From positions 1 to 64,000 of the forward strand of contig WRIJ01000001.1 in assembly GCA_009782785.1 (NCBI GenBank): a stretch of DNA of 64,000 bases, read 5' to 3'. Origin of the DNA: Propionibacteriaceae bacterium. Its GTDB lineage: Bacteria; Actinomycetota; Actinomycetes; Propionibacteriales; Propionibacteriaceae. Position 1 is the first letter of the stretch. Every line of letters begins with the position of its first letter. The notes under the pieces were generated by a model. It saw only the letters and a program-made list of their open reading frames with translations. It did not search any database and was not told where the DNA came from. This document shows positions 5,719-15,305 of the stretch, one piece after another. The position numbers and the translations under genes are program-made.

Positions 5719-6924
5719 GTGACTTATTCAATGGACGGTTGGCAAGAGCCAACTTTTAGCGAAAACCTAGAGAGGGCTGGCGTTACACGTCGAGACTTCC
5801 TCACTTATTGTGGCAGCCTGGCTGCCATTTTTGCAGCCGGTACGACCGTACTAGGTTCTGCAAGTCCAGCCTACGGCGAACCGGATGTCACAGCTGAGGA
5901 CATCGCACGTGCTTTCGACTCTGTGAAGAAACCGAATGTGATTTGGTTGCAACTCCAGGAATGCACCGGATGCATGGAGTCTGTGTTGCGCGGGGCCGGG
6001 ACAACGGTAGAAGACGTGGTGCTCAATTTGTTGAGCGTCAACTACAACGAACTCGTCATGGCAGCCACTGGCGAAGCGGCCAACCAGGCTCTCGAAGACA
6101 CAGTCAAAGAGGGCGGCCACATCCTGGTCGTCAATGGGGCAGTATCCCGCAAGGATGGTGGAGTCTGCTGCATGATCGGTGGAGAAACATCTGAGAACCT
6201 GTTGAAGAAGTCAGCAGAAGGTGCAGCAGCGATCTTGGCTGTTGGCGCCTGCTCTGTTTATGGTGGTGTCCAAGCAGCCGCACCGAACCCCACAGGAGCT
6301 GTCGGGGTCGACACGGTCCTCGGGAATCGCTCGGTGATCAACGTCTCTGGTTGCCCGCCCATCGCTGAAGTGATTTTGGCAACCATCGCGTACTTCCTCA
6401 CCCACGGTGATCCTCCAAAGACTGATTCCCAAGGGCGCCCACTGTTCGCCTATGACCAGCGCATTCACGACTCCTGTCAGCGGAGACCACACTTCGATGC
6501 CGGGCAGTTCGTTCGTACCTTCGATGATGAGGGTGCCCGTAATGGCTGGTGCCTCTATCACGTCGGTTGCAAAGGCCCGAGTACGTTCAGTGCATGCCCC
6601 ATCATTCAATGGAATATGCATACGTCGTGGCCAGTGAAGACTGGAAACCCGTGCATTGGGTGCACAGAGAAAGACTTCTTCGACAAGTTCACCCCCTTCT
6701 TCTCCCGGTTGCCTAGCGTTCCAGGTTTCGGTGTGGAAGGTACCGCCGAAAAGGTTGGACTGGGACTGGTTGCCGCAACAGCTGTAGGCATCGGCCTGCA
6801 TGCTGGTGCTACTGCCATCCGCAAGTCGGCCGCCTCGAAAAACTCCGAGGAGGAGCCTCTGGCTGCCTTCGGTGATGAATCATCCACCTCCGCCAATGCC
6901 GCTGACGCGGCACGCACATCCTGA
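5719..6924 (+). CDS. hyaA: [NiFe]-hydrogenase small subunit, Tat-exported, C-terminal TM anchor
   Basis: GTG start behind 'aaggagcgg'; Tat motif TRRDFLTY; proximal cluster ECTGCMES and GACSVYGG; C-terminal cluster motifs (HDSC, GWCLYHVGCKGP, CIGC); C-terminal hydrophobic helix. Confidence 0.93.
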   Translation: MTYSMDGWQEPTFSENLERAGVTRRDFLTYCGSLAAIFAAGTTVLGSASPAYGEPDVTAEDIARAFDSVKKPNVIWLQLQECTGCMESVLRGAGTTVEDVVLNLLSVNYNELVMAATGEAANQALEDTVKEGGHILVVNGAVSRKDGGVCCMIGGETSENLLKKSAEGAAAILAVGACSVYGGVQAAAPNPTGAVGVDTVLGNRSVINVSGCPPIAEVILATIAYFLTHGDPPKTDSQGRPLFAYDQRIHDSCQRRPHFDAGQFVRTFDDEGARNGWCLYHVGCKGPSTFSACPIIQWNMHTSWPVKTGNPCIGCTEKDFFDKFTPFFSRLPSVPGFGVEGTAEKVGLGLVAATAVGIGLHAGATAIRKSAASKNSEEEPLAAFGDESSTSANAADAARTS

Positions 6925-6936
6925 AAGGAATAAAAC

Positions 6937-8724
6937 ATGGCAGACCGCGTCGTTATTGACCCCATCACTCGCATTGAGGGGCACCTACGCATTGAGCTCG
7001 AAACTAGTGGAGGAAAGATCACTGATGCTTGGAGCTCGACAACCCAATATAGGGGTTTTGAAGAAATCCTTGTCGGACGTGACCCGAGGGATGCTTGGGC
7101 ATTCACCAACCGCATTTGCGGAGTGTGTACGGGCACCCACGCCCTGGCTTCCATCTCCGCAGTTGAGAACGCTATCGGTTCACAACCTCCTGAGCAGGCT
7201 GTTCTCATCCGCGACATGATTCTCTCAGCAACAGACATCCATGACCATGTGGTTCACTTCTATCACCTGCATGCTTTGGACTTTGTCAATGCAGCTAATG
7301 CAGCTAGTGCTGACCCACAAAAGGCCGTCGATTTTGCCAAGTCCATCGGCTCAACCTGGAGAGGCAATAATCTCACCCGCATGACTGAAGTGCGCGACAC
7401 AGTGAAGAATCTTGTTGAGTCAGGGCAGTTGTCTGTGTTCACTGGTGGATACTGGGGACATTCAGATTATCGGCTCCAGCCAGAAGCTGATCTCATGGCT
7501 GTGGCCCACTACCTGGATGCCTTGGAATTCCAGCGTTCCATGATTCGTATTGTCACCACCTTTGGTGGAAAGAATCCTCACCCCCACTTCCTCGTTGGTG
7601 GAATGGCGTGCACGATCGACCAGAATAAGTCGGAAACAGTCAACCAGGTTCAGGTCTCTCAACTCCAGGCATGGATAGCTGAGATCAACGAATTTGTGGC
7701 CACCTGTTATGTCCCGGATGCTATGGCGATTGTGGGAGTTTATAAAGACTATTTCGACATTGGTGCAGCGAACCCCAACTACTTGGCTGTGGGTCTTGCT
7801 GGGGCAACATTTAGTGGTGATCCCAATGAAGTGCCCAAGTTCCCCACGTCAAAAATGGCTGTGAAACCTGGAGTGATCTATGACGATGACTTCTCCCAAG
7901 TTCACCCCTTCGATCCCACCCTCATTGCTGAATCAGTGAACTCGACATGGCTGAGTTATGAAGGCGGGGAAAAGGCTCTCACTCCTGATAAAGGTCAAAC
8001 CAAGATGGCCTACAGCGGGCCACAACCACCGTACGAATCCAAGACAATGGCCAGCGATGACTCTGTTTTGGTTGTCAGTCGGGATAGTGATTGGGATGGC
8101 AAGTACACCTGGTGCAAGGAGCCCATGTACAACGGCAAGCGTATGCAGGTCGGACCAGTTGCCCGTGTCATCATGGCGTACGCACAAGGCCATCCTCGCA
8201 TGAAAGAAATCGTTGATGGTGCTGTGGCGAAACTCGGAATCACACTCGGACAGATGAACTCGACAGCAGGACGTGCCCTCGCTCGTGCGGCAGAGTGCTT
8301 GCTCACTGCCGAGATCCTCGCCCAAGATACCTTCCCGAAATTTGTGGAGAACCTCAAAAAGGGAAACATTGATGTCTTCGATGCCTCCAAGTGGGAGCCT
8401 AGCTCCTGGCCGAAAGAGTCCTCAGGATATGGCATGGTCGAAGTTGCCCGTGGAATGCTCTCACACTGGGTCACGGTCAAGGATCGCAAGATCGAGCGCT
8501 ATCAGTGCGTGGTTCCCACCACGTGGCTTGGTGGCGGGCGAGATGAGTCAGGACAGATGAGCCCCTTCGAACATTCGTTGGCAGGGGATAAGAATCACCC
8601 CTTGGCTGATCCGAAACAACCTCTTGAAGTGTTGAGGACGATCCACTCCTTTGATCCTTGTATGTCCTGTGCAGTCCATGTTTTGGATGTGGATGGCAAT
8701 ATTCTCCAGGTGGCCCAATCATGA
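6937..8724 (+). CDS. hyaB: [NiFe]-hydrogenase large subunit (group 1-like)
   Basis: L1 motif RICGVCTGTHALAS and C-terminal L2 motif DPCMSCAVH followed by a short removable tail (VLDVDGNILQVAQS). Confidence 0.95.
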   Translation: MADRVVIDPITRIEGHLRIELETSGGKITDAWSSTTQYRGFEEILVGRDPRDAWAFTNRICGVCTGTHALASISAVENAIGSQPPEQAVLIRDMILSATDIHDHVVHFYHLHALDFVNAANAASADPQKAVDFAKSIGSTWRGNNLTRMTEVRDTVKNLVESGQLSVFTGGYWGHSDYRLQPEADLMAVAHYLDALEFQRSMIRIVTTFGGKNPHPHFLVGGMACTIDQNKSETVNQVQVSQLQAWIAEINEFVATCYVPDAMAIVGVYKDYFDIGAANPNYLAVGLAGATFSGDPNEVPKFPTSKMAVKPGVIYDDDFSQVHPFDPTLIAESVNSTWLSYEGGEKALTPDKGQTKMAYSGPQPPYESKTMASDDSVLVVSRDSDWDGKYTWCKEPMYNGKRMQVGPVARVIMAYAQGHPRMKEIVDGAVAKLGITLGQMNSTAGRALARAAECLLTAEILAQDTFPKFVENLKKGNIDVFDASKWEPSSWPKESSGYGMVEVARGMLSHWVTVKDRKIERYQCVVPTTWLGGGRDESGQMSPFEHSLAGDKNHPLADPKQPLEVLRTIHSFDPCMSCAVHVLDVDGNILQVAQS

Positions 8725-9947
8725 CAACCACATCACCCGGCACCCTTGCTGAGGTTCCTCTACTCGTAGCAGGGACGGCCTATAGCCTCGGTGTGGTTTC
8801 TGAGGGGCGCATCATGACAATGGCTGCCGCTGCTCCTCCGGGCAGTGATGATCCTGTTGATCAGGCAGCGATTGCAGCACTGAAGGCTAACTATGTTGGT
8901 CTTGATGTTCCGCTGGTCGATGCCGCAGATGTTGACCCAGCCACACCAAAGAGGCGATACAGCATTACTCGCATTCGGGCCTACCATCGTCAAGATGGTG
9001 GTCGAGATGATCGTGTGATTATGCGTGGTGATCTGGATGCTGTCCTGGACAAAGTCGAAATCTCGAAAGAGGAACGTCGAGTCATTAAAAAGAATGCTGC
9101 TGCGGTTGTCCGCAATGGCTGGCGCCCCTTAGCGGTCGCTCGTGCCAAGGTCAATGCTAAGGATGAGGTCGGCCCTTTCCGTATTGAAGGGTTTGTCCCG
9201 GTCGCCCCTGAAGCCAGTCATGCCAAATTGGCTGATGTATCCTCAGGGCCAGCTGTGTTTGCCCGAGTACGAGTGTGGTCAGCATCCTTGCGTTTCCAGC
9301 ACTGGTTGAATGTGGCGACGATCTTTGTTCTGAGCTGTACGGGTTTCTTCATTATGGATCCTTTCTTTGGAACAACCAGTGTTGAATCTGACGCTAGTGG
9401 CTACCTGATGGGGACGATTCGAATGATCCACTTCACTGCTGCTTTCATTTGGCTCATCATCGGTCTTGCTCGAATCTGGGCAGCGTTCATGTCACGTGAT
9501 CGCTATCTTCGTTGGCCTACTTTGTGGCCGCTGAAGAAGAAGGAAGACGTGAAGAATCTTGGCAAGATTCTCCAGCACTATGCGCTGATAAAAGAGCATG
9601 CTCCGCTGTATTTAGCTCATAATCCTCTACAGCAATTGGCGTACACCTCGTTGTATGTTGCTGGTGGTTTTCAGTTGCTCACAGGTTTCATGCTCTATGG
9701 TCTCTACCACCCAAGCAGCAGTTTCTGGGCCTTTATTTCCACACCAGCGACATGGATAGGTATTCCCACTCTTCGCTTGATCCATGCCATGATGATGTTC
9801 CTGTTGTGGGCTTTTGTGCTCATGCACATCTATATGGTGCTGCGCAGTGAATCCCTGGAGCGTCACGGTGGGTTGTCAGCGATGATCAACGGTGGTGTCT
9901 GGGTCAGGCGTGGTTCTGAGCCTGTGGATGCCCCGAAGGTCGAGTGA
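8721..9947 (+). CDS. hyaC: Hydrogenase b-type cytochrome subunit with about 190-aa N-terminal extension
   Basis: ATGA overlap with hyaB; C-terminal half is a cytochrome b561/HyaC-like membrane domain (RFQHWLNVATI, IHFTAAFIWLIIG, RLIHAMMMFLLWAFVLMHIYM). N-terminal half is soluble and not typical of HyaC. Confidence 0.85.
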   Translation: MTTTSPGTLAEVPLLVAGTAYSLGVVSEGRIMTMAAAAPPGSDDPVDQAAIAALKANYVGLDVPLVDAADVDPATPKRRYSITRIRAYHRQDGGRDDRVIMRGDLDAVLDKVEISKEERRVIKKNAAAVVRNGWRPLAVARAKVNAKDEVGPFRIEGFVPVAPEASHAKLADVSSGPAVFARVRVWSASLRFQHWLNVATIFVLSCTGFFIMDPFFGTTSVESDASGYLMGTIRMIHFTAAFIWLIIGLARIWAAFMSRDRYLRWPTLWPLKKKEDVKNLGKILQHYALIKEHAPLYLAHNPLQQLAYTSLYVAGGFQLLTGFMLYGLYHPSSSFWAFISTPATWIGIPTLRLIHAMMMFLLWAFVLMHIYMVLRSESLERHGGLSAMINGGVWVRRGSEPVDAPKVE

Positions 9948-10449
9948 GTTCGAGATCGACGAGTCTCTTCGCGATAGGTTTGCCGTCACCGTTTTGGGTG
10001 TCGGCAACCCGATCATGGGCGATGATGGTGTGGGGATCACACTCTTGGAGAGGTTGCGCCATGAGTACGGTGATCCCCGTGTTGACTTTGTTGATGGTGG
10101 GACAGGTGGACTCGAACTGATCCCCGTCGTTCAAGATGCGAGACGTTTACTCATCGTTGATGCCGTGGCTGGGGACACCCCCGGTGAGGTTGTTCAATTC
10201 GATGGTGACCAGATTCCAAGGATGATGCAAGCCAAACTTTCGCCCCACCAAATCAGTTTGCTGGATCTTTTTACTACGGCAAGAATGCTCGGTAGCGAAC
10301 CTGAACATATTGCTGTGGTGGGTGTCGTACCCCAGTATGTCGGATTGCGTGTGGGACTGTCTGGAGTGGTGGAAGCTGCCCTCTTGCAAGCGACCAGCAA
10401 AGCTGGGGAGATCCTTCGCACATGGCTTGGTGAAGAGAATCTGGCATGA
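9928..10449 (+). CDS. hyaD: Hydrogenase maturation protease (HyaD/HycI family)
   Basis: VLGVGNPIMGDDGVGI and FVDGGTGGLELIPV motifs; exact start uncertain (ORF opens at 9892). Confidence 0.85.
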   Translation: MPRRSSEFEIDESLRDRFAVTVLGVGNPIMGDDGVGITLLERLRHEYGDPRVDFVDGGTGGLELIPVVQDARRLLIVDAVAGDTPGEVVQFDGDQIPRMMQAKLSPHQISLLDLFTTARMLGSEPEHIAVVGVVPQYVGLRVGLSGVVEAALLQATSKAGEILRTWLGEENLA

Positions 10450-10490: not shown

Positions 10491-10841
10491 CTATCCCTTG
10501 ACCATGTCAGCATAGGTGACGTCAAATTCATTCCCGGAGACAATTTTGCCTGCAGGCGAGCCGCACACTGGGCATGTCAAGGCAAAATACTGATCAATGT
10601 CTTGATCCTTGTCGCAGGTACCACACCACACACGCGCGGGAATTTCTTCAATCTCCAAGGTCGCATCAACGCAGATCGTTCCCTGGGTAGCGATAGGCCA
10701 GGCTCCTTCCAGAGCCTCGCGTACTGCACCACTGCGAACCCCCACACGCAAACCCACCTTGGTCACCGAAACCGCACCATAGGTGTCGGCAGCATGACGA
10801 ACAGCGGCCACGACATCAGCCAACAAGCCCAGTTCATGCAT
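10491..10841 (-). CDS. hypA: Hydrogenase nickel-insertion protein HypA (copy 1)
   Basis: N-terminus MHELGLLADVV, zinc motif CGTC...CPVCG; on the strand opposite to flanking genes. Confidence 0.9.
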   Translation of the reverse strand: MHELGLLADVVAAVRHAADTYGAVSVTKVGLRVGVRSGAVREALEGAWPIATQGTICVDATLEIEEIPARVWCGTCDKDQDIDQYFALTCPVCGSPAGKIVSGNEFDVTYADMVKG

Positions 10842-10873
10842 GGATACCTTCTTTTTCACCAGGGACGATTGCC

Positions 10874-12118
10874 ATGATACAACAGGTCAATATTGGTGCA
10901 GTGATCGATCCTGCTCCCGCTCGCGTACTAGTGAAACGAGACACCCACGGTGAGGTGGTGGAGGCTACCTTTGATTTGTCTGGGTTACCTCGGGTGGATT
11001 CTATGCTCATTGGCCGGAAGGTAGCCGATGTTCCTGGACTCGTTGAGCGGTTGTGTGGGATCTGCCCTGCGGCTCACCATCTTGCTGGTATCCGAGCTTT
11101 GGAGGATCTGGCAGGCATCACCCAGATTCCGCACTCAGCAGCTCAACTGCGAAGGCTATTGCACTACGGATCAGTGATGGCGATCCACGTCGTCTCACTG
11201 GTGGCAACCCACCCTCATGAAGCTCTCCTGCTTCGCCGTTTCGCCAAAGCCGCCATGGCTGCTGCAGGTTCCCCAGGACACTTTCCCACCACTGCTGTTC
11301 CTGGGGGAGTAGCAACTAGCCTTGATCCAGGTACGAGCCAGCAGTGCCTGGAGATGGCCGCTGAAGCCCTCGATGCAGCAACCGCTCTCGTCATGCAGAC
11401 TATGGCCACTGAAGTACCCGCTGACCCTTTCACCGGTGCCAACCTTGCTCTGGTGGACGACGATGGCCTCCTTGACCTGTTTGGGGCCTATGTACGAGTG
11501 GTTGACCACCACGGCGAAGAACTGATCTCTCAGGCGGATCATCACCAATGGGAGACACTGGTGGCAGAAGCCATACCAGGGTCATCCTCCCCGAAACCTT
11601 TTCTTCGTGGATGGGGATCTGGTGCAGGGACCTATCGGGTTGGTCCGGTCGCTCAACTGCGGGTTGCCCCCCTGTCCACCCCACTCGCTGACGAATTCCG
11701 CCATCTCTGGAATGAACAAGGCCAGGGGGCTGCTCGAGCCCGAGCGATTAGCATTCTTCACTGTGTGGAGGCCATTGAGTCCATACTGTTGGATACCCAG
11801 TCCCATCAAGGTGAGCTGGTCGGTGCAGGTCACCATGAGCGTCTTACACGCAATACCGGTGTGGGATGGGTTGATGGGGCCCGTGGTCTGCTCGTACATC
11901 GTTACGTCACTGACCATGATGGCCTTGTCACAGATGCACAAATTTTGACTCCCACAGCACAAAATGAACCATGGCTGGGAGCCCTGCTCACCCATGAGGC
12001 TGCGTCGATGAGTGACTTGGGTTTCGAAGCTGCCATTCATGAAGCAGATCCATGCCTGCCCTGCTCGTCAGCACCTGCTGGTGCCATGGGGCTCCACGTG
12101 GAGACTGGGCAAGTATGA
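10874..12118 (+). CDS. Hydrogenase large-subunit homologue without paired small subunit (HupK/HoxV-like maturation scaffold?)
   Basis: RLCGICPAAHHLAG motif near N-terminus; C-terminal ADPCLPCSSAPAGAMGLHVETGQV, which lacks the DPCxxCxxH His; 414 aa, shorter than hyaB. Confidence 0.8.
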   Translation: MIQQVNIGAVIDPAPARVLVKRDTHGEVVEATFDLSGLPRVDSMLIGRKVADVPGLVERLCGICPAAHHLAGIRALEDLAGITQIPHSAAQLRRLLHYGSVMAIHVVSLVATHPHEALLLRRFAKAAMAAAGSPGHFPTTAVPGGVATSLDPGTSQQCLEMAAEALDAATALVMQTMATEVPADPFTGANLALVDDDGLLDLFGAYVRVVDHHGEELISQADHHQWETLVAEAIPGSSSPKPFLRGWGSGAGTYRVGPVAQLRVAPLSTPLADEFRHLWNEQGQGAARARAISILHCVEAIESILLDTQSHQGELVGAGHHERLTRNTGVGWVDGARGLLVHRYVTDHDGLVTDAQILTPTAQNEPWLGALLTHEAASMSDLGFEAAIHEADPCLPCSSAPAGAMGLHVETGQV

Positions 12119-12130
12119 GAGGATGGTCCC

Positions 12131-12376
12131 ATGTGCATTGCTGCTCCCGTACCCATTCTTGACATCAGTGAAGGTCCCATGGCGATGGGGCACGTACTGT
12201 GTGACGGTGAACCGCATCCATGCTGTTTTGCGTACGTACCTGAAGCGCGCGTTGGCGATTACGTCTTAGTCCAGAACGGATTCGCCACTCAACTCCTTGA
12301 TGAGGAATCTGCTGCACTCAGTATGGCTGCCTTTGAGGAGTTAGCCAAGCTACCATCAGCGGTGCAATTGCCTTAG
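12131..12376 (+). CDS. hypC: HypC/HupF family hydrogenase maturation chaperone (copy 1)
   Basis: N-terminal MCIAAP motif; HypC length and fold pattern (GDYVLVQNGFA). Confidence 0.88.
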   Translation: MCIAAPVPILDISEGPMAMGHVLCDGEPHPCCFAYVPEARVGDYVLVQNGFATQLLDEESAALSMAAFEELAKLPSAVQLP

Positions 12377-12810
12377 TTTTGTCCCGATTCCTCTTCCGGT
12401 GCTGCAGGTGGCGGCAGGACCGGCGGGCGTGGGCGCGGGGGAATCAGGTGAGCTCCGGCTTGGAGGCGCAACTTAGTGACTTCAGTGCGCATGGCGTTCA
12501 TCTCATCGCGCAGGGCAATCAGTTCGCCACCCACATCGTGTTCCAGTGAAGAGATCTCCTCACCAAGAACAGAATTAACTAATGACTTGGGGTTAAGATC
12601 CGACACATTGAGGCCATCGAGGGGGAGATCAGAAAACTCTTCACCGAGCTCTGCCTTGAGTTGATCGGTGGCGTCGTTAGCAATTCCGCGCAGAAAATTG
12701 ATGACAGTTGACACTTTTTTCACCATGGGAGGGATCTTGTCAGGGCCAAAAACCACAGCAACCAAGACACAGATGACAAGAAGCTCGGCCATGCCGATAT
12801 CGAGGAACAT
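12373..12810 (-). CDS. tatB: Sec-independent translocase TatB-like protein
   Basis: MFLDIGMAELLVICVLVAVVFGPDKIPPMVKKVS: single TM helix, FGP(D)KLP-like motif, amphipathic helix, Pro-rich tail. Confidence 0.85.
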   Translation of the reverse strand: MFLDIGMAELLVICVLVAVVFGPDKIPPMVKKVSTVINFLRGIANDATDQLKAELGEEFSDLPLDGLNVSDLNPKSLVNSVLGEEISSLEHDVGGELIALRDEMNAMRTEVTKLRLQAGAHLIPPRPRPPVLPPPAAPEEESGQN

Positions 12811-12907
12811 CAGTGTCATAACCACAGTTTAGCCGCGTCGCTTACAGGAGGCGATTATTGCTGATAGGATCGTGAGACACACTGGCTCTGTTAAGAGGAG
12901 GTCCTTC

Positions 12908-13147
12908 ATGACCGGTTTGGCACTGTGGATGCCTGGCATCTGGCAGATGGTTATCGTCCTAGTTATCGTGTTGCTCGTCTTTGGTGGAACGAGGATTGCT
13001 GGAATTGGGAAAGAATCTGGTCGAGCCATTCGAGAGTTCAAAGAAGAACTCAAGGGCCCAGAATCACCGTCTTCCCAGGGAGAGACTGCTGGGGAGGCAA
13101 GCACAGCAAAGCTGGAGGCCAAAGCCACTGAGCAGGCTGACTCATAA
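12908..13147 (+). CDS. tatA: Sec-independent translocase TatA
   Basis: TM helix then VFGGTRIAGIGKESGRAIREFKEEL; SD 'gaggagg' upstream of ATG 12908. Confidence 0.87.
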   Translation: MTGLALWMPGIWQMVIVLVIVLLVFGGTRIAGIGKESGRAIREFKEELKGPESPSSQGETAGEASTAKLEAKATEQADS

Positions 13148-13161
13148 GGCAGGGGTCAATC

Positions 13162-14040
13162 GTGCCCAAGAAGGGTTCGCGCCTAGCGTGGCTGCGGGCA
13201 CCCAAGTCCTCTGACACCCAAGGGTCGATGCCCCTGATCGACCATTTGCGTGAATTGCGCTACCGGTTCCTCATGTCGATGATTGCTATCGTGGTCTTGA
13301 CAATCGTGAGCCTTTTTTTCCAATCCCAGCTTCTTCGCGTCGTCTTGTGGCCCATTGATCGAGCTGTCGAAATCTTCAACACCTCACGTCCCGATGATCA
13401 TGTCGAAATGGTCACCCAAGGAGTCACCGCTGGTTTCGCCCTATTTTTCCGTGTAGGTCTAGTGGCAGGATTCATCGCCGCATGCCCAGTGTGGTTGTTT
13501 CACCTGTGGCGATTCATCATCCCTGCTGTGGGGAAAGCTCAGCGCCGTGTTGCCCGAGGGTTCCTTGCCGCCGCAGTCCCACTCTTCCTGCTTGGTGTTG
13601 GGGTGGGTTACTCGTTTTGTCCTCGAGGTTTTGCAGTCCTACTCGAATTCAATCCACCCACAGTGACCAACCTCAATGACGTGGGAACCTTCCTCACCTT
13701 TGAATTACGCTTGCTGCTCGTCTTTGGTCTGGCCTTCCAATTGCCGGTGCTCTTAGTGAGTTTAAACAAAGTGGGGTTGATCACGGGGAAAGCTTTGGGG
13801 AAATTCCGAGGCCCAGCCATTGTCTTGTGTGCCCTCTTCTCGGCCATCGCAACCCCGACCACCGATGCGTTCACCATGATGGTTTTGATGGTGCCCATGA
13901 TGATCATGTACGAGATCGCCGAAGTGCTGTGTCGCATCGGTGATCGCAGACGGAGGAATCGTGGGGATGAAAGAGAACAAACACCATCGAGGTTCTCGAA
14001 GCGACAACCACCAGGCCACGTGGAGCTAGAATCCCACTAG
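13162..14040 (+). CDS. tatC: Sec-independent translocase TatC
   Basis: MPLIDHLRELRYRFL motif, six TM segments, 'LTFELRLLLVFGLAFQLPVLL'. Confidence 0.93.
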   Translation: MPKKGSRLAWLRAPKSSDTQGSMPLIDHLRELRYRFLMSMIAIVVLTIVSLFFQSQLLRVVLWPIDRAVEIFNTSRPDDHVEMVTQGVTAGFALFFRVGLVAGFIAACPVWLFHLWRFIIPAVGKAQRRVARGFLAAAVPLFLLGVGVGYSFCPRGFAVLLEFNPPTVTNLNDVGTFLTFELRLLLVFGLAFQLPVLLVSLNKVGLITGKALGKFRGPAIVLCALFSAIATPTTDAFTMMVLMVPMMIMYEIAEVLCRIGDRRRRNRGDEREQTPSRFSKRQPPGHVELESH

Positions 14041-14892: not shown

Positions 14893-15231
14893 TCAATCCT
14901 CCAGTACGAGCGAGGTCACCATGAACTCTTCACCAGTGAGGATGTCCACTTTCGTACTCTCGCAAAAGTCACACACCAGTATAGGTGTATCCCGCAGGGT
15001 GGTTTCCTTGAGACAATCCTGGCATTTCAGTGTTCCCTCGATGGAGTGAATCTTCAAGGTGGAACCCTCTAATGTGGTCGATGGTGTGACAAAATCCCAA
15101 CAGTAAGCCAGTGTTGCAGGAACCACTTGTCGCAGGTTACCCACATCGAGTTCCACGACTCGTACTCGGCGTCCTCGTGCAGCCACCTCAGCGATAGCCA
15201 CAATGGAGTGGCACAAAGACAACTCGTGCAT
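14893..15231 (-). CDS. hypA: Hydrogenase nickel-insertion protein HypA (copy 2)
   Basis: MHELSLCHSIV N-terminus, CQDC...CDFC zinc motif; abuts hypB. Confidence 0.9.
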   Translation of the reverse strand: MHELSLCHSIVAIAEVAARGRRVRVVELDVGNLRQVVPATLAYCWDFVTPSTTLEGSTLKIHSIEGTLKCQDCLKETTLRDTPILVCDFCESTKVDILTGEEFMVTSLVLED

Positions 15232-15305
15232 GGATCCTCCAATAGACCAGGGTCTCAAGCTTTGCTACGCTCGTGGATATTCATCCTACGTCAAGGCAGG
15301 TCATC

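Follow-up and report, generated by a model that had tools for sequence, protein, structure and literature searches.

The window analysed here, a stretch of 64,000 nucleotides from a Propionibacteriaceae bacterium (GenBank assembly GCA_009782785.1, contig WRIJ01000001.1, positions 1 to 64,000 of the forward strand), contains a [NiFe]-hydrogenase cluster with the gene order hyaA-hyaB-hyaC-hyaD, and the identical order was found in all ten relative loci examined. The genes and the parts of the hyaC product are as follows.

5719-6924, + strand: hyaA, [NiFe]-hydrogenase small subunit (TIGR00391, 410 bits), with a twin-arginine signal (RRDFL) and a C-terminal hydrophobic tail
6937-8724, + strand: hyaB, [NiFe]-hydrogenase large subunit of group 1 type
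8721-9947, + strand: hyaC-type gene, fusion of a P-type ATPase N-domain and a Ni,Fe-hydrogenase b-type cytochrome, 408 aa (TIGR02125, 135 bits); its ATG overlaps the hyaB stop codon
8751-9215, + strand: N-domain, residues ~11-165, almost certainly homologous to the P-type ATPase nucleotide-binding domain; no DKTG and no P-domain
9216-9272, + strand: linker between N-domain and membrane domain, residues 166-184, mostly of low model confidence (AlphaFold pLDDT <50 from residue 168)
9273-9893, + strand: membrane domain of the cytochrome b, residues 185-391, with four helices (TIGR02125/PF01292 match)
9892-10449, + strand: hyaD, maturation endopeptidase (TIGR00072, 132 bits; matched part from ~9982)

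The hyaC product is a [NiFe]-hydrogenase cytochrome b of the HyaC/HydC type, which scored 135.1 bits with TIGR02125, above the curated cut-off of 121.5, and matched PF01292 with an E-value of 1e-27. It resembles the HyaC/HydC/HupZ b-type cytochromes of group 1 [NiFe] hydrogenases in its four-helix membrane domain, its conserved histidines, its position after hyaB and its score above the cut-off, but differs from them in carrying ~165 additional ordered, putatively cytoplasmic residues. His194, His237, His355 and His369 of the membrane domain were invariant in all 18 aligned homologues and are likely the haem ligands, the number of which would fit two haem b groups.

Downstream of hyaABCD, hypA and a second large-subunit-like gene were found in most of the ten relative loci. 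The large-subunit-like protein of the window (10874-12118, + strand, 414 aa) contains both RxCGxC and DPCxxC and has no adjoining small subunit; its gene was kept 3' of hyaD, with a divergent hypA in between, in 8 relative loci, and the protein could be either a HupK-like scaffold on which the active site is assembled or an orphan catalytic subunit. Two divergent hypA genes lie in the one cluster (10491-10859 and 14893-15258, both on the - strand), each ~31-37% identical to the counterparts of the other in relatives, which suggests separate nickel delivery partners. The cluster also includes tatB, tatA and tatC (12373-14040), which perhaps serve export of the Tat-dependent hydrogenase, and tatA/tatC adjoin the cluster in some relatives. 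A syntenic second copy of the whole cdf-hyaABCD-hypA-lsu2-tat-hypBA-hypF-hypE-hypD region, with 59-89% protein identity, was located at ~41.9-57.5 kb of contig C2 of genome G000 (locus L105), and a relative binned into the same assembly, as opposed to a duplication, may be its source, since assembly contamination was reported as 6.48%.

A first-pass annotation made from the letters of the window had placed the gene at 8721-9947, had noted about 190 extra soluble N-terminal residues and had stated that HyaC proteins usually start near the membrane domain. All of this was borne out: the ATG at 8721 overlaps the hyaB stop, ~185 residues (~165 of them ordered) precede the membrane domain as delimited by the TIGR02125/PF01292 match at 185-391, and HyaC-type subunits elsewhere in the phylum have ~7-37 residues at this place. 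The extension was present in all 18 aligned homologues, which were drawn from Propionibacteriaceae and from metagenome-assembled genomes labelled Bifidobacteriaceae or Actinobacteria. The survey of Propionibacteriaceae for the same fusion, which had been proposed as a check, returned a strong extension match in 28 of 199 genomes. These matches lay in open frames of at least 414 residues in 27 of the 28 cases, the exception being a frame of 111 residues where a contig ends, and so no free-standing copy of the N-domain was seen among the 199 genomes. Within the 98 nearest genomes, each HyaC above the family cut-off belonged to a genome listed with the extension. In the nearest non-fusion HyaC-type subunit (L077), the membrane domain is preceded by a 122-residue open frame without a methionine, and the likely start is a GTG ~30 residues before that domain. 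The fusion proteins formed one clade with support of 100/99 in the membrane-domain tree, which is consistent with a single fusion event, and the fusion to a complete N-domain apparently arose once, in an ancestor of a lineage centred on Propionibacteriaceae.

Copies from outside the window's own genome were ~40-55% identical to the window copy in the N-domain and 59-74% identical in the membrane domain. In three close pairs, dN/dS of the extension was 0.24, 0.34 and 0.21, and that of the membrane part of the same pairs was 0.20, 0.12 and 0.27; judged from these substitution ratios (0.2-0.34), the extension is translated and under purifying selection. Almost no weight attaches to an untranslated or mis-started region with a passive upstream frame and the true HyaC start near residue 185, close to where such proteins usually begin, against the upstream dN/dS of 0.2-0.34, a frame open in all relatives, a start abutting the hyaB stop and extension motifs kept down to 36% identity.

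Comparison of the extension with P-type ATPases was performed at the level of profiles, genomes and predicted fold. The NCBIfam model TIGR01647 (P3A ATPase) matched the window protein with an E-value of 0.001 and matched 8 of the 18 members (best E-value 6.4e-5), far under its curated whole-protein cut-off, as expected with one domain alone. A reverse search was carried out with the extension's own profile against the six-frame translations of 397 genomes from the phylum and 395 from the class (~790, the two sets partly overlapping), and gave ten matches outside the family. Eight of these were P-type ATPases with DKTG and GDGxND in which the match fell inside the N-domain and in register; the other two (L060 and L064), proteins without ATPase motifs, were set aside as chance. 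Alignment of the extension with 34 actinobacterial P-type ATPases using hhalign gave a probability of 96.5, an E-value of 8e-10 and a score of 65.5; column shuffling, repeated 100 times, gave no score above 24.2, and the reversed profile scored 20.1. An AlphaFold model of the extension, built from seven sequences of its own family alone, reached a pLDDT of 79 and a pTM of 0.76, with order from about residue 11 to 167; the single-sequence model (pLDDT 42) was unusable. When the family model was searched against the PDB using Foldseek, 73 matches were returned with an E-value of 0.001 or less, and the 50 listed were all P-type ATPases; the best E-value among the matches listed was 1.1e-7 with a probability of 1.00, and the TM-score of the predicted model reached 0.63, with Pma1 and the plasma-membrane H+-ATPase 5ksd. 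Searching the fold against a viral library gave only three matches at the same threshold, all P-type ATPases. The structural and profile comparison proposed earlier thus came out on the side of likeness, for a region that is mostly ordered.

Because the NCBIfam match, the reverse genome search, the HMM-HMM comparison and the predicted fold all agree, the extension is almost certainly homologous to the P-type ATPase N-domain. That the fold is another or a new one, and the motif likeness a coincidence, might be argued from the Pfam result (no P-type ATPase model at an E-value of 1 or less for the extension alone or any of the 18 members), from the empty single-sequence phmmer search of PDB sequences and from the profile search of the PDB, which reached only copper ATPases at an E-value of 0.4, out of register, and was discarded as evidence. 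Against this stand the independent profile, reverse-search and fold results with their controls, and such a coincidence is very improbable. Since the curated libraries that were used hold no model for the domain, database annotation likely misses it. For the P3-type assignment of the first-pass annotation the results are divided: the TIGR01647 match alone favours P3A (H+-ATPase) kinship, and the subfamily profiles scored about equally against the extension (P3A 56.7, other P-type ATPases 60.7), which leaves P3A as one candidate among the possible subfamilies of origin.

The predicted fold, the order of motifs and several pocket residues are shared with the N-domains of P3A H+-ATPases (e.g. Pma1/AHA2) and of P2 and P1B enzymes, and the likeness read by eye in DPVD, DPAT..RR, MRGDL..VL, NGWRPLAVA and F.IEGFV proved to be in register. 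The extension differs from these N-domains in a Lys to Arg change in KGAP and in the Phe, which is mostly lost, and from whole P-type ATPases in the absence of the P-domain, the A-domain and the pump membrane domain; the membrane part of the fusion protein is a cytochrome b, so that the N-domain is joined to a redox subunit. The earlier proposal of a P/N-domain therefore stood for the N-domain, through the profiles, the genome-wide reverse search and the predicted fold, and failed for the P-domain and its inactivated DKTG.

The failure lies in the register. In TIGR01647 the DKTGT motif occupies positions ~290-294, and the match starts at residue 7 of the query and position 295 of the profile; the alignment of YSLGVVSEGRIMTM with the phosphorylation motif DKTGTLTEGRLTV is thus out of register. 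In hhalign, residues 11-35 paired with the stretch that follows DKTGT, with SEGRIMTMAA opposite SERDVLLCGA, and both there and in the P1B-like hit L059, whose corresponding stretch reads SESRVLALAAATEANSEHP, the segment SEGR(V/I)..LAA paired with the beginning of helix 1 of the N-domain (SESRVLALAA, SERDVLLCGA). A relic of the catalytic Asp at YSLGVVSEGR was rejected as out of register with these alignments. A second candidate, the DKTGTLTE-like TSPGTLAE at residues ~4-11 of the window copy, was rejected as not conserved in relatives. The P-domain motifs TGD and GDGxND were absent from the extension. Since the profile alignments start after DKTGT, the domain begins after the hinge, and on these alignments the extension is an N-domain alone, from which the P-domain is wholly absent rather than inactivated; no remnant was found in which Tyr could replace a catalytic Asp. 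The reading as a pseudo-P-type ATPase headpiece, with an inactivated P-domain ahead of the N-domain, draws on the resemblance by eye of YSLGVVSEGR to DKTGTLTEGR, but DKTGT is placed before residue ~7-11, SEGR is the N-domain helix start, TGD and GDGxND are missing and residues 1-10 are unconserved and of low model confidence, and it is accordingly highly unlikely. With the P-domain and the DKTG Asp absent from the sequence, pump-like phosphorylation and ATP hydrolysis are excluded for the extension.

Pocket residues were mapped from the alignment onto the nucleotide site of SERCA, the mapping being the authors' own, and the equivalent segments are as follows.

8850-8861, + strand: DPVD, residues 44-47, corresponding to DPID of P3A enzymes and to SERCA Thr441/Glu442; D44 and V46 invariant, D47 D/E in 18/18
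8931-8957, + strand: VDPATPKRR, residues 71-79, corresponding to FDPxxKRT and to Phe487..Lys492 of SERCA; V/I/F/A/T at the place of the Phe
9021-9032, + strand: MRGD, residues 101-104, corresponding to KGAP (SERCA Lys515), with an invariant Arg102 instead of the Lys
9117-9149, + strand: GWRPLAVARAK, residues 133-143, equivalent of RGxRxLAVA (SERCA Arg560/Leu562); R135 and L137 invariant

In SERCA, Phe487 and Arg560 anchor the nucleotide (PMC3203174), the role of Arg560 is also described in PMC11977196, and roles of Thr441, Glu442, Lys515, Arg560 and Leu562 are attributed to Clausen 2003 as cited in PMC11977196. The N-domain Lys is conserved but absent in P1B and P6 ATPases (PMC10654040). The equivalent of Glu442 is Asp47 (D/E in 18/18), that of Lys515 is Arg102 (R in 18/18), and those of Arg560 and Leu562 are Arg135 and Leu137 (R and L, each in 18/18); Arg78 is the tentative equivalent of Lys492, owing to a one-residue insertion. 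Val71, at the place of the adenine-stacking Phe487, is F in 3 of the 18 sequences, V/I in 13, A in one and T in one; this loss of the Phe points to ligand binding that is weaker or of another kind. Invariant positions made up 4 of 7 in the pocket and 15 of 150 across the core (P 0.002), a pattern that is no proof of ligand binding because the conserved pocket residues are also fold-core residues, and that fits a retained but altered anion or nucleotide site. Isolated N-domains of ATP7B and Na,K-ATPase fold and bind nucleotide alone when produced as recombinant fragments, but those are laboratory fragments and not natural proteins of other function.

The counts of Lys and Arg in the N-terminal flank, loops 1-3 and C-terminal tail were 4, 0, 9, 0 and 4, and on the positive-inside rule this pattern places the extension very probably in the cytoplasm. 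Export of the catalytic subunits is established for group 1 hydrogenases, and is indicated in the window by the RRDFL of HyaA. In HyaC/HydC systems H2 is oxidised outside and electrons pass from the small subunit through haem b to menaquinone. That the N-domain acts as a cytoplasmic regulatory module binding a nucleotide or similar ligand is the preferred reading, given somewhat less than an even chance, and nucleotide sensing by the extension is plausible. The inherited pocket would accept adenine nucleotides or else a related anion, and the N-domain, which continues through the linker at residues 166-184 into helix 1, would be placed to report that cytoplasmic ligand. The ligand state might then adjust electron flow from the periplasmic [NiFe] hydrogenase through haem b to menaquinone, with binding of ATP or ADP changing quinone reduction or the stability of the complex. 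Precedent for N-terminal control of HyaC was sought in literature of partial coverage, and none was found.

The main rival to this regulatory reading is a scaffold role, in which the N-domain has lost its nucleotide binding and acts in assembly or in docking to other proteins, for instance by tethering the hydrogenase complex to a partner in the cytoplasm or by making HyaC more stable. Loss of the Phe487 equivalent in 15 of the 18 sequences and the change of Lys515 to Arg speak for it, as does the faster evolution of the N-domain relative to the membrane domain, but the nucleotide-pocket equivalents are among the most conserved residues of the domain, a feature that a pure scaffold would not need. 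Such a role is distinctly possible, short of probable. A stricter form of the regulatory reading, that an N-domain which escaped from ion pumps acts as an energy-charge (ATP/ADP) sensor and gates, by way of the cytochrome b, a membrane-bound uptake hydrogenase, is given a probability of roughly 0.35.

To our knowledge, the P-type ATPase N-domain is otherwise known only inside P-type ATPases. Literature on such a fusion, or on the hydrogenases of these bacteria, yielded nothing relevant within a partial coverage, which counts as weak evidence of novelty. Natural attachment of an N-domain to a redox subunit would demonstrate that such a domain is reusable as a module, and, if nucleotides are bound, the fusion would offer a direct, testable route by which Actinobacteria of the gut and the environment could match H2 oxidation to their ATP status.
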